64,000 nt of DNA from an archaeon (GTDB taxonomy: Archaea > Aenigmatarchaeota > Aenigmatarchaeia > QMZP01 > JAFGSV01). A program made the translations under genes and the position numbers. Each line of letters starts with the position of its first letter. Positions within the stretch are counted from its first letter, which is position 1. The notes under the pieces are model-generated. The model had not been told where the DNA came from. It did no database searches and saw only the letters and a program-made list of their open reading frames with translations. Below, in pieces: positions 235-38,448 of this stretch. The stretch lies in assembly GCA_028279705.1 (NCBI GenBank), contig JANQNF010000024.1:112257-176256 (forward strand), given 5' to 3'.

Positions 235-1737
235 ATGGTGACGAAAATTTCTGCAATGGCTGGCGAACATGTCATTCTCGGTACAGTAGAAAAGGACGGT
301 AAAGTTCTCTTGCTGATGGATCTTAAAGACAATCAAAACGGCGGCGCTTCGTACGTATCAGGAGATTCAAGGAGATCCGTCAACCTCATAAAGGCAGAAT
401 TCGAAGATTACGAAAAATACAAAAAGGAATGTGCGAGCAGGATCTCGCTTGTGAAGAAAAAAAGGAAGACTGGCAGACTGAAGGCTTCATACGTCTTCAG
501 CGACGGTGAAGAGATAGGGATATCAGCGAAGAAACCTGTCATAGACAATTTCCTGAAGGAATCCAGATTCAACGATTTTCTGCACAGGGTTTCCTCAGCG
601 GCCGCGTCCACCCTTAACGTTCATGGTGCAGTTCCTGAAGAGAAGATAAGGAAATTCTTCCGCAAGCCGAAGAAAAGCGTATTCAGTGATCTCCGTGGCA
701 TGAAGAGCGCACTTTATTCCCATGACGGCGAATGGAAGAAATTCCTGAAAGCTGCCGGGGTGACACTTTCCGTCATAATGCCCACCTACAACGAAGTTAA
801 CTTCGAGAGGAACGTATCACTCGTCGGAAACGTCAAGAAAGCGGGTCTTGTGAACGAGATAATAATCACTGACGGCTATTCTTCCAGGCACGAGCCTGCT
901 GAGGTACTGGAAGGCATGAAAAGCGGAGGCAGTGACCTAGGATGCACTATCATAAGGCAGAACGGCGCCGGAAAGGGTGAGGCCATAGAGTCTGCGGTGA
1001 AATATGCGCTCACACAGAAGCACGACTTCTGCATAATACTGGATTCGGATAACATGGCCGCCCTTTCGAGGGTCTATGATGATCCGCCAGTAGACATTGA
1101 CATAGAATTCTTCCTTCGCAGCTTCATCCGTTCCATAATAACTAACATCCGTGAGAGAGGACCCGACGAAACAAGGAAAACGTTCTTCAAGGCATCGTAC
1201 ATGAGGATGCCGCAACTCAAGAAGAGTTTTGAGCTGAGGTTCGGCTTGGTCACGAGGATAGTGAAGGACTTCTACTCGCGGGCACTCGGTTCAAGCCACA
1301 ACCTTTACGCACTGAGCGGTGAGGTGGCCTTCAATCCGAGGTTTCTCCTGGAAAAACTGAGCCTGAGCAAGCACGTACTCGATCTCATGGGTCTGTCAAA
1401 GTCCCAATACTGCGGTTCCAACGTTCCCGGAGGGTTCTGCCTGGAAACCATATGGAACTCGATCATAGACATAATGGGCTATGACGTCTGCTACGTCAAT
1501 ACGTACCTGCACCATCACGGGCCTGTCGTGAAATCCACGAAAACAGATATAGGCGAGCAGATAGGCGAAGTGCTCACAGGTACATTCGCTGGCATGCTCA
1601 TAGGACTGATTTACAGCGGCAAGTATGACAGGAAAACAACAGATCTGCTGAAGAAGATACCTCTCGACGTTCTGAGGCCGGACAGACTCATTCTCAAACT
1701 TCATGAAGGTAAAACAAAGCCAGAAGACATCAGATGA
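235..1737 (+). CDS. family 2-like glycosyltransferase, resembling glucosyl-3-phosphoglycerate synthase, with ~180 aa N-terminal extension
   Basis: VTLSVIMPTYNE, IIITDGYSS, GAGKGEAIESAVKYA, FCIILDSDN motifs typical of GT-A GpgS/MpgS-like enzymes. Confidence 0.7.
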   Translation: MVTKISAMAGEHVILGTVEKDGKVLLLMDLKDNQNGGASYVSGDSRRSVNLIKAEFEDYEKYKKECASRISLVKKKRKTGRLKASYVFSDGEEIGISAKKPVIDNFLKESRFNDFLHRVSSAAASTLNVHGAVPEEKIRKFFRKPKKSVFSDLRGMKSALYSHDGEWKKFLKAAGVTLSVIMPTYNEVNFERNVSLVGNVKKAGLVNEIIITDGYSSRHEPAEVLEGMKSGGSDLGCTIIRQNGAGKGEAIESAVKYALTQKHDFCIILDSDNMAALSRVYDDPPVDIDIEFFLRSFIRSIITNIRERGPDETRKTFFKASYMRMPQLKKSFELRFGLVTRIVKDFYSRALGSSHNLYALSGEVAFNPRFLLEKLSLSKHVLDLMGLSKSQYCGSNVPGGFCLETIWNSIIDIMGYDVCYVNTYLHHHGPVVKSTKTDIGEQIGEVLTGTFAGMLIGLIYSGKYDRKTTDLLKKIPLDVLRPDRLILKLHEGKTKPEDIR

Positions 1738-1773
1738 TCATCGTTTAAAAATCATCACCCGAGTAATATTCTC

Positions 1774-2454
1774 ATGAAGAAAAAGCTTACTCTTCCGCAA
1801 CCATTCCAGTCACTCATGGAGGGAATAGAACATGGTGCGCTCACAAACTTCTACGGCGCTCCCGGCACCGGCAAGACCAACCTCTGCCTGCTGACGTCGC
1901 TTGAGGTGATAAGAAGTGGCGGGAAGGTGATATTCATAGACACCGAGGGCGGCTTCTCCCAAGAGAGGTTCGCGCAGATATTCCCGAACCCCGAAGAAGC
2001 GCTGAAAAGCGTCCAGATACTTGAACCAAAGGATTTCAAGGAGCAGGGAAAGATGATAAGAAGCCTTCCGGGCATGCCGGCTGACATGATAATAGTGGAT
2101 TCCGCGGCAGCCCTTTACAGGCTAGAGTACTCGGATCCTGAGAAGGAAGCGCTTGAAGCCAACAGGGAACTTTCCAAGCAGATGTCTGTTTTGTCCAACA
2201 TCGCGAGGGAAAGATGCATACCCGTCGTGGTCACCTCGCATACTTACAAGAACTGGGACACCGAGAACAACGAGATAGTAGGAGGCGACGCCATAAAATA
2301 CTGGTCAAAGGCTGTCGTGTTCCTCGAAAGGACCGGAAAGATGTCCGAGAGGAATGCATCAATAATAAAGCACCGCTGGCTTCCCGAGGGCAAGACTGTC
2401 AAATTCGAGATCGTCCATGAAGGAATAAAGCCGTCTGGTAGGAAAATATTCTGA
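1774..2454 (+). CDS. radB: DNA repair and recombination protein RadB
   Basis: RecA-fold Walker A GAPGTGKTNLCL, Walker B-like MIIVDSAAALYRLE, short archaeal RadB length (226 aa). Confidence 0.85.
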   Translation: MKKKLTLPQPFQSLMEGIEHGALTNFYGAPGTGKTNLCLLTSLEVIRSGGKVIFIDTEGGFSQERFAQIFPNPEEALKSVQILEPKDFKEQGKMIRSLPGMPADMIIVDSAAALYRLEYSDPEKEALEANRELSKQMSVLSNIARERCIPVVVTSHTYKNWDTENNEIVGGDAIKYWSKAVVFLERTGKMSERNASIIKHRWLPEGKTVKFEIVHEGIKPSGRKIF

Positions 2455-35646: not shown

Positions 35647-35689
35647 AACGCCCTTTTAAATTTTCACTCTAACACTTAACAGTGTCTGA

Positions 35690-37060
35690 ATGAAATATGA
35701 AATCACTACAGAACTTTTCGTGATTCCGGATGGAAAAAGTCATATAGTCTACTCCCCGTTCAAACGTTTCGCATTTCAAGCTAACCGTCACATGATAATG
35801 CTTCTCGGTAAGATAAAACGTGGCGAAGAGATCAAGGAAAATGCCGATATTAAGAAAGTTTTGAATTTCTTGAAAAGGCACAAAATCGTTAACGGACCGA
35901 AGGATCATGTCTTTGTTGGTACGAAAGAAACGAAATTTCACCCGACATCCGTTACATTGCTGCCCACTTCTGATTGTAACCTCAGATGCGTTTATTGTTA
36001 TTCAAATGGTGGCGAGAAACGTGAATACATGGATTGGGAAGTCGCGAAGGCTGCCATAGACACAATTGTTGAAAATGCAATGATACTCGAGTCCAAACGC
36101 ATTCACGTTGGTTTCCACGGTGGTGGTGAGCCCACAATTGCATGGGAAACACTAACCAAGTCCGTTGATTATGCTAGAAAGCTTGCCAGAAAAAACTCCA
36201 TCAAAATTCGCACGAGTATGGCAACTAATTGCTCTTTTGACGAGAGGAAGCGAGACTGGGTAGTTAAAAACATGAACCATGTGAATGTATCTTTTGACGG
36301 GCCGAAAAATATACATGACACTCAGAGACAGTTCGCTGACAAGACTGGGAGCTTCGATGTGGTTTTCGGAAACATGAAATATTTCGACAAAATCGGTTAC
36401 TCCTATGGAATAAGGACGACGGTGACAAGGATGAGCGTCAAACGTATGACTGATATAGTAAAATTCATTCATCGCGAGAATCTCTCTGCCTCTAATATAC
36501 ATTTCGAACCTCTCTTCTCATGCGGTCGCTGCTCCGGAACAAAATGGACATCGCCTGACCCGGAAGTTTTTGTTCGCGAGTTCAATAGAGCATCAGAAGC
36601 CGCTGAAAAATGCGGCATCGATTTATACTCATCAAGTTGCAGGATAGAGAAGTTGGGTAACATTTTCTGCGGTGCCTGTGGAACTAATTTCTGCCCCACT
36701 CCCGATGGTCATGTTACATCATGTTATGAGGTAAGTTCTAGCGATGACCCCAAATCCGGTGTATTCTTTTATGGAAAATATAACAAGAAGCGGCAGAAAT
36801 TCGAGTTCGACCGAAAAAAACTGGATACACTGCGTAAAAGGACGACGGAAAATATGGAATCGTGCGCTGGATGTTTTTCTAAATGGCACTGCTGTGGCGA
36901 TTGTCTATCAAAGGCCGTTTTGACAAGTGGGTCAATTCTAAAACCGTGTGAAGATAGATGTATAATCAATAGAGGAATAACGAAGTACTACATAAAACGA
37001 CTCCTTCAGGGCAAAAAACTTGCTAAAAGTAGACTGAGTGCTGAGATAATTGAATGTTAG
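35690..37060 (+). CDS. radical SAM/SPASM domain protein, putative peptide (RiPP) maturase
   Basis: CNLRCVYC (CxxxCxxC), GGGEPTIAWE, SFDGPKNIHD, SPASM pattern CPTPDGHVTSC...CAGCFSKWHCCGDC...CEDRC. Confidence 0.9.
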   Translation: MKYEITTELFVIPDGKSHIVYSPFKRFAFQANRHMIMLLGKIKRGEEIKENADIKKVLNFLKRHKIVNGPKDHVFVGTKETKFHPTSVTLLPTSDCNLRCVYCYSNGGEKREYMDWEVAKAAIDTIVENAMILESKRIHVGFHGGGEPTIAWETLTKSVDYARKLARKNSIKIRTSMATNCSFDERKRDWVVKNMNHVNVSFDGPKNIHDTQRQFADKTGSFDVVFGNMKYFDKIGYSYGIRTTVTRMSVKRMTDIVKFIHRENLSASNIHFEPLFSCGRCSGTKWTSPDPEVFVREFNRASEAAEKCGIDLYSSSCRIEKLGNIFCGACGTNFCPTPDGHVTSCYEVSSSDDPKSGVFFYGKYNKKRQKFEFDRKKLDTLRKRTTENMESCAGCFSKWHCCGDCLSKAVLTSGSILKPCEDRCIINRGITKYYIKRLLQGKKLAKSRLSAEIIEC

Positions 37061-37089
37061 TTTAAAAAACTTCTTTTCAATTTTTTATT

Positions 37090-37305
37090 ATGCCAGAAGA
37101 GGATTTCAGGCTGAAGAATAAATCTGATGGTAAAGAGAATAAAGCTTACAGGAGTCCCCAGATATATAAGGCGCTTCTGCTGACAGTATTTTACGAAAGC
37201 GATTTTGTGTCTTGTGCCCCAGCACCGTCATGTACGTGTAAGGGTGTATGTCATTGCGAGGATGATTGCATTGATGCTTGCCCCGGGGATTGCAGCGTCG
37301 CTTGA
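37090..37305 (+). CDS. putative Cys-rich RiPP precursor peptide (71 aa, 8 Cys in last 30 residues)
   Basis: C-terminal SCAPAPSCTCKGVCHCEDDCIDACPGDCSVA; immediately 3' of radical SAM maturase; A/T box TTTAAAAAACT just upstream. Confidence 0.75.
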   Translation: MPEEDFRLKNKSDGKENKAYRSPQIYKALLLTVFYESDFVSCAPAPSCTCKGVCHCEDDCIDACPGDCSVA

Positions 37306-37314
37306 TTTTCCCTT

Positions 37315-37902
37315 TTATTCGTGTTCAAGCGAGAACAGATCTATTATGAATATGGCGAACGGTGTGAATATCAGCAGTAACGCGAAAGCTATTAATGCAA
37401 TTATCACGTTTATGGTTGGTATGCTATAGCCAAGCATTATTAAGATAGATACGTAGCTTAATACCAGAATAATCAAAACTATGGTCGCGAGTGTACTTGT
37501 TGCCATAGCTATGACACTTCTCCATGCAAGTAAAATAAGTACCACCAGCAATATTACCGCTGCCACTGCGAGTATTATTGCAGAGCTTCCCATTATCACG
37601 AAAATTGCAGCTATGGCGAGTACTGTGATTATTGCAACGAATAGTGGACTTCCGGCCAACGGAAGCGACCACATCTTACCAGCAGTTACGACACTTCCTG
37701 TCACTAATGCATAAAGAATGAAAATTGAGCCGAAAAACAGTGCAGTACTCGGCGGCAGAATCTCAATGAAAGGATATCCCCTGAGAGCCGCGAATACAGT
37801 CCATATGAGAAAAAGGAATATGAAAATTACGAGCGCGACCACGACGTAGCCCCACTTGCTTCCGTGGAACGTCTCCTCGCGGGTCTTCCATGTCTGGCTC
37901 AT
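37315..37902 (-). CDS. multi-pass membrane protein of unknown function (~195 aa)
   Basis: Several long hydrophobic segments; convergent with the precursor gene, 9 bp apart. Confidence 0.75.
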   Translation of the reverse strand: MSQTWKTREETFHGSKWGYVVVALVIFIFLFLIWTVFAALRGYPFIEILPPSTALFFGSIFILYALVTGSVVTAGKMWSLPLAGSPLFVAIITVLAIAAIFVIMGSSAIILAVAAVILLVVLILLAWRSVIAMATSTLATIVLIILVLSYVSILIMLGYSIPTINVIIALIAFALLLIFTPFAIFIIDLFSLEHE

Positions 37903-37925
37903 GGTAAATAATTATTCATGCAAGG

Positions 37926-38351
37926 TTAAAAAATGGAAGTGTGACAATCCGTATCGAATCTGTACCCGCACCAATCGCCCTCTATGCCGACTATGGGCGA
38001 TTCGTAAACTTTAGACGCAATGGATTTGATATAAAATTTGGGACCGTTTTTTGCGCATTCTCCATACGAAATTTCCGACTTCTTACCGGTCAGGTGTGGA
38101 TATAGACCTATGCCGGGTATTAAGAAGTTTCTTGTCGACTCGCAGCCCACTTTCGCAGGAATCCACGAAAATAGTATATATTCTCCTGTTTCCTCTTCGA
38201 TGTACTCTGGAACCTTTATGCAGTCGACACGCTTGATCTTTGCAATTTTTATCCTTGTATCATCTTCAAGCAAGATACAGTGCTCGCCTGCCGTCTTTTC
38301 AAAATCAACCTCACTGCCGTCTATGATCCTTTTTATTGTTTCTATTGCCAT
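37926..38351 (-). CDS. hypothetical protein (141 aa)
   Basis: Intact ORF upstream of the membrane protein gene. Confidence 0.6.
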   Translation of the reverse strand: MAIETIKRIIDGSEVDFEKTAGEHCILLEDDTRIKIAKIKRVDCIKVPEYIEEETGEYILFSWIPAKVGCESTRNFLIPGIGLYPHLTGKKSEISYGECAKNGPKFYIKSIASKVYESPIVGIEGDWCGYRFDTDCHTSIF

Positions 38352-38448
38352 ATTACGCTAAGATGTAAAGAAATAAAAACACATTTTCTGCACACAGCCG
38401 CGAAAGCTTTTAAATATCAATCCCACGATATAATTTCAAGTGATTTTA

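Follow-up and report, generated by a model that had tools for sequence, protein, structure and literature searches.

The locus described here raises the question of whether a radical SAM/SPASM gene and the small cysteine-rich ORF behind it, both lodged in an archaeal ribosomal-protein cluster, encode a peptide maturase and its substrate. An earlier note on this DNA had read them as a RiPP system. We analysed the whole stretch of 64,000 nucleotides (the window) and conclude, with a probability of roughly 70%, that the two genes form a RiPP cassette in which the 71-aa peptide is the precursor; a single archaeal species probably acquired it.

A two-gene cassette between rpL3 and rpL4

The features of the locus are listed in window coordinates.

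35647..37314, plus strand: two-gene cassette, without counterpart in sister genome G001
35651..35661, plus strand: TATA-like box upstream of the maturase gene (CTTTTAAATTT / CTTTTAAAT), assigned only by resemblance to the consensus
35690..37060, plus strand: radical SAM/SPASM gene for a putative peptide maturase, 456 aa (RRE-like N-terminal region, residues ~1-65; CNLRCVYC, 96-103; SPASM cysteines, 327-424)
37060..37070, plus strand: TATA-like box upstream of the peptide ORF (GTTTAAAAAA), likewise assigned only by consensus resemblance
37090..37305, plus strand: candidate precursor peptide, 71 aa (leader, residues ~1-41; Cys-rich core, 42-71)
37315-37902, minus strand: membrane-protein gene between rpL3 and rpL4, common to the sister genomes and outside the cassette
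37926-38351, minus strand: 141-aa gene between rpL3 and rpL4

The coordinates and lengths given in the earlier note were exact, as were the 29-bp gap and the CNLRCVYC motif (C96, C100, C103). For both the maturase gene and the 71-aa ORF the in-frame codon scores exceed those of all five other frames, and on reading the sequence a TATA-like box lies ~20-37 bp before each ATG; a leaderless transcript of the peptide ORF would fit the spacing of its box. The arrangement by which RiPP loci are recognized, a modifying-enzyme gene next to a small ORF that divides into leader and core, is present: 29 bp separate the maturase gene from an ORF in which 41 Cys-free residues, the leader-like part claimed earlier, precede a tail of eight cysteines. 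The cassette itself holds no transporter or protease genes.

The surrounding genes, named from reading their sequences, are S13, S4, S11 and an rpL3-type gene upstream and rpL4 and rpL23-type genes downstream, and the whole cluster follows the archaeal order. The placement between rpL3 and rpL4 described previously agrees with this, but the same interval also contains the two minus-strand genes listed above, of which the 141-aa gene has no Pfam match and no counterpart in the sister regions. GC3 is 0.43-0.47 across the island from the maturase gene to position 38351. The ribosomal genes immediately before it have values of 0.61-0.66, and rpL4 has 0.62; because the rpL23-type gene also has a value of 0.48, the low GC3 of the island is by itself no proof of foreign origin.

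In sister genome G001, the homologue of the membrane-protein gene at 37315-37902 begins 9 bp after rpL3. Because it follows rpL3 directly, the maturase and peptide genes are the sole extra genes at this site relative to G001, and the joint absence of exactly these two therefore makes them look like a cassette. The rpL3-adjacent slot is variable, since sister genomes G002 and G003 hold an ornithine carbamoyltransferase-like gene there instead; within the genus, the rpL3-rpL4 gap (window 35647-38439; sister regions L145-L147) thus contains the radical SAM cassette, the ornithine carbamoyltransferase-like gene or other genes. The cassette was probably gained in the window species, which would seem likelier than its loss three times over.

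A separate pair of genes was seen in G002, where another radical SAM/SPASM gene adjoins a 75-aa ORF (the pair at L147:478-1545 and 1562-1789, minus strand) ~2 kb past the same membrane-protein gene. This ORF contains repeated F-x-x-S-C-x-S-x-G units, and two further genomes have weak matches to it (E 0.005-0.008).

A SPASM enzyme outside the curated families listed

The maturase matches PF04055 above the cutoff. The SPASM-like C-terminal cysteine pattern pointed out earlier proved complete, and C327, C345, C392, C395, C401, C405 and C424 are kept in relatives together with C96/C100/C103. Among the NCBIfam families listed in the family-model scan, the maturase reaches no cutoff and scores far below each. 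The best curated family among them is PapB (NF047865; 134.3 bits, cutoff 340), which also ranks first for six out of seven scanned members of the maturase's clade; it is followed by the nif11-like peptide maturase (TIGR04064; 127 bits, cutoff 519), and the SCIFF maturase is within the top three (TIGR03974; 118.5 bits, cutoff 425). The CXXX-repeat target maturase scores 83 bits (TIGR04115; cutoff 350), and cyclophane and sactipeptide maturase families likewise score.

By sequence and by fold (full model pLDDT 73), the top PDB matches are 5wgg and 5why, structures of the thioether-forming RiPP maturase CteB, at ~22% identity. The N-terminal 88 residues, modelled alone, adopt a beta-beta-beta-alpha-alpha arrangement at low confidence (pLDDT 52), and its four highest-ranked PDB fold matches all come from RRE-containing RiPP proteins, though without significance (E 0.2-1). 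Pfam found no PqqD/RRE match on the N-termini. An RRE is defined as BBB-AAA (PMC12710340); the weak model hints that the maturase N-terminus is likely such a leader-binding domain.

The earlier note had named membership in a sulfatase-activating clade as an outcome that would count against its reading. Crystal structures of anaerobic sulfatase-maturating enzymes (anSMEs) do occur among the sequence and fold matches, but the score against TIGR03942 is 66-69 bits for a cutoff of 349, and on reading the sequences the two full-length sulfatase-family proteins of the genome carry Thr, not Cys, at the formylglycine position. We rejected an anSME identity on this score and on the lack of a CxPxR sulfatase partner in the 92% complete genome, and give it practically no chance.

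A non-random cysteine-rich candidate precursor

As described before, the last 30 residues of the 71-aa ORF contain eight cysteines, located within residues 42-68 (positions 42, 48, 50, 54, 56, 60, 64 and 68). Their spacing is CxC in the first half of the core and C-x3-C for the last four. One exact Cys-X3-Asp pair is present (C54-D58), and three further cysteines have an Asp at n = 1-2. Among the window's 386 ORFs of 40-200 aa this is the only one with at least eight Cys per 30 residues, and none of 18,646 ORFs simulated from 2.56 Mb of first-order Markov sequence reached this density; since genuine genes differ from Markov sequence in numerous respects, the test demonstrates non-randomness, not function. 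The leader may resemble the Clo7bot type (YxSPxI...ESDF), a likeness to which we attach no evidential weight.

The CxC and CxxxC spacing would also suit a metal-binding protein of metallothionein type, either one with no need of the maturase or one whose modified form chelates metal. We hold this to be quite improbable: the peptide has no Pfam or NCBIfam match, metallothionein models included, its gene adjoins that of a SPASM enzyme, and a Cys-free N-terminal part of 41 residues is atypical of metallothioneins.

Searches of 156 genomes from the phylum, of the rest of the genome that encodes it and of plasmids gave no homologue of the peptide. The pattern CxCxGVCxC was discarded as a family signature: it matches in 3 of the 156 genomes, and the two besides the window have no Cys-rich peptide adjoining a maturase relative. 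On viral contigs, none of 46 matches adjoins such a relative, which makes the signature unusable alone.

Relatives of the maturase and their neighbours

In the same 156 genomes, the closest kin of the maturase are found at four loci (G076, G054, G063 and G113; 30-39% identity), with weaker matches besides, and five plasmid relatives share 28-33% identity; a single-protein scan of genome contigs gave one distant Bacilli enzyme and no other relative. In the tree, the window enzyme, the five plasmid relatives and five archaeal entries form one clade (support 100/98) whose inner branching order is without resolution; viral relatives fall outside it.

The neighbours of these enzymes differ. None of the genomes G076, G054, G063 and G113 contains the 71-aa peptide, and the close maturases at L040, L042 and L065 have no adjoining Cys-rich ORF; the L040 sequence ends short upstream, and an M50-like peptidase gene (below the Pfam cutoff) immediately follows its maturase. 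In archaeal locus L041 (G054), a 248-aa Cys-rich ORF lies 1.6 kb from the maturase and has a sub-cutoff match to the His-Xaa-Ser model HxsA3. On the Methylocystis plasmid a 19-Cys ORF lies ~32 bp downstream of the maturase; on that of Chlorohelix a Tat-like protein whose tail is rich in Cys is encoded 24 bp upstream; and on that of Caballeronia a Tat-like ORF with a brief CxC stretch overlaps or follows the maturase. The Edwardsiella and Salmonella plasmids have CCRGG...GGG peptides, an ABC transporter and an S8 peptidase beside the maturase, and these Gly-rich partners contain two Cys each only.

The maximum is 8-10 Cys per 30 residues in the window, Methylocystis, Chlorohelix and L041 ORFs, compared with never more than 7 at other radical SAM loci of the class (~128 kb). 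The core aligns with the Chlorohelix tail better than full shuffles (p 0.002) and Cys-fixed shuffles (p 0.016), and with the Methylocystis ORF at p 0.016 and 0.049, respectively (values uncorrected, from four pairwise comparisons of which two failed). Likeness to the L041 and Caballeronia ORFs was no better than shuffles and was set aside.

Several other radical SAM loci were observed in this survey. Radical SAM/SPASM genes accompany HxsD-like small genes at L043 (4752-7593), L044 (135-2793) and L065 (7708-10322); L043 and L044 also encode a His-Xaa-Ser repeat peptide, that of L043 matching the HxsA3/HxsA4 models below cutoff, and L065 has a related leader and no clear HXS repeat within the part read. 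On the phage-type IMG/VR contigs L052, L053, L055, L057 and L140, radical SAM/SPASM genes adjoin very Cys-rich proteins or peptides of CxxxC type. The Chlorohelix plasmid cluster (L061, 1-5329) combines three radical SAM genes with the Tat-like protein.

Interpretation and proposed chemistry

The locus is best read as a RiPP enzyme with its precursor: a PapB-like SPASM enzyme with an RRE-like N-terminal fold adjoins a non-random Cys-rich partner, the two occur together at a site where a sister genome has neither, and Cys-rich ORFs lie beside some distant clade members. To this extent the original proposal stands. Conservation of the 71-aa ORF beside homologous maturases, the lack of which the earlier note had said would tell against it, is not seen, and formally this counts in part against the reading: the pair is not conserved across related genomes, and distant maturases have only unlike Cys-rich ORFs, near some of them. 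This absence and the differing neighbours within the clade would also be expected of a SPASM peptide maturase whose substrate is encoded elsewhere, with the 71-aa ORF an unrelated passenger gene. RiPP precursors, however, diverge fast, the slot that is empty in G001 holds both genes and no others, and ORFs as dense in cysteine as this are very rare, yet recur near clade members; we therefore regard a passenger as unlikely.

For the enzyme-precursor pair, the modification is probably thioether formation. The leader (~41 N-terminal residues) would be recognized by the enzyme's RRE-like N-terminal region, and SAM would be cleaved at a [4Fe-4S] cluster held by C96/C100/C103. By analogy with PapB and CteB, a hydrogen would then be taken from an acceptor residue of the core and the acceptor joined to a Cys thiol, which may yield several thioether rings within the last 30 residues. 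Under PapB's Cys-Xn-Asp rule, the candidate pairs would, speculatively, be C54-D58, C56-D59, C60-D62 and C64-D67; because PapB tolerates n = 0-6 (PMC9413430), four such pairs are possible, yet little is predicted. Nor can Cys-Asp chemistry be a rule of the clade, because acidic residues are all but missing from the core of the Chlorohelix protein. To free the core of the 71-aa peptide, a protease and an exporter encoded outside the cassette would be needed.

A genuine pair might instead perform another chemistry, such as a sactionine (C-alpha thioether), a C-C cyclophane or a different radical modification in place of a ranthipeptide linkage. The maturase reaches no family cutoff, cyclophane and sactipeptide maturases score in the same scan, and the probable substrates differ across the clade; on the other side, the PapB and SCIFF thioether maturases rank within the top three families, and thioethers are the natural guess for eight cysteines. 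We consider such a chemistry possible but doubtful, and as a sub-case of the preferred reading it shares part of that reading's weight.

Clusters for radical SAM-modified RiPPs (ranthipeptides and sactipeptides) have already been predicted widely in archaea, including DPANN, and before that 2025 study experimental validation existed for only two archaeal lanthipeptides (PMC12144867). The suggestion that the system is possibly undescribed thus holds at the family level only. What is new here, judged from sequence, is a putative maturase-peptide pair outside the curated families listed, with a hint of a cross-domain maturase clade with Cys-rich substrates. We propose tentatively, and at clearly less than even odds, an undescribed RiPP family of a PapB-like maturase clade with CxC-rich substrates, exchanged by horizontal transfer among bacteria and archaea with small genomes, in many cases on plasmids, and lodged in this instance in a ribosomal-protein cluster. 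If confirmed on more genomes, Cys-rich ORFs beside plasmid-borne relatives in distant bacteria would point to a family that current models miss, and the minimal two-gene pair offers an easy test case for archaeal radical SAM peptide chemistry.

Comparison with known systems

The window enzyme has the radical SAM/SPASM fold of anSME (TIGR03942) but scores far below its cutoff, adjoins a Cys-rich peptide gene and comes from a genome in which no Cys-type sulfatase was seen. With the CXXX-repeat target system (TIGR04115) the core shares the C-x3-C spacing of its last four Cys, whereas its first half is CxC rather than a CXXX repeat and the maturase scores 83 against 350 bits. The nif11-like system (TIGR04064) provides the second-best curated family, but at 127 against 519 bits and with no nif11-like leader match in the peptide. 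The CteB/SCIFF maturase (5wgg, 5why; TIGR03974) has the same order of N-terminal domain, radical SAM and SPASM and a Cys-rich substrate; the differences are a score of 118 against 425 bits, ~22% identity and a window peptide without NCBIfam match. In PapB/PapA (freyrasin, a ranthipeptide; NF047865) the cutoff of 340 bits compares with 134 for the window maturase, whose partner has one exact Cys-X3-Asp and mostly CxC and CxxxC spacing, but this system is the best curated match and shares the SPASM layout and, in the candidate precursor, an abundance of Cys along with several Cys-Xn-Asp pairs.
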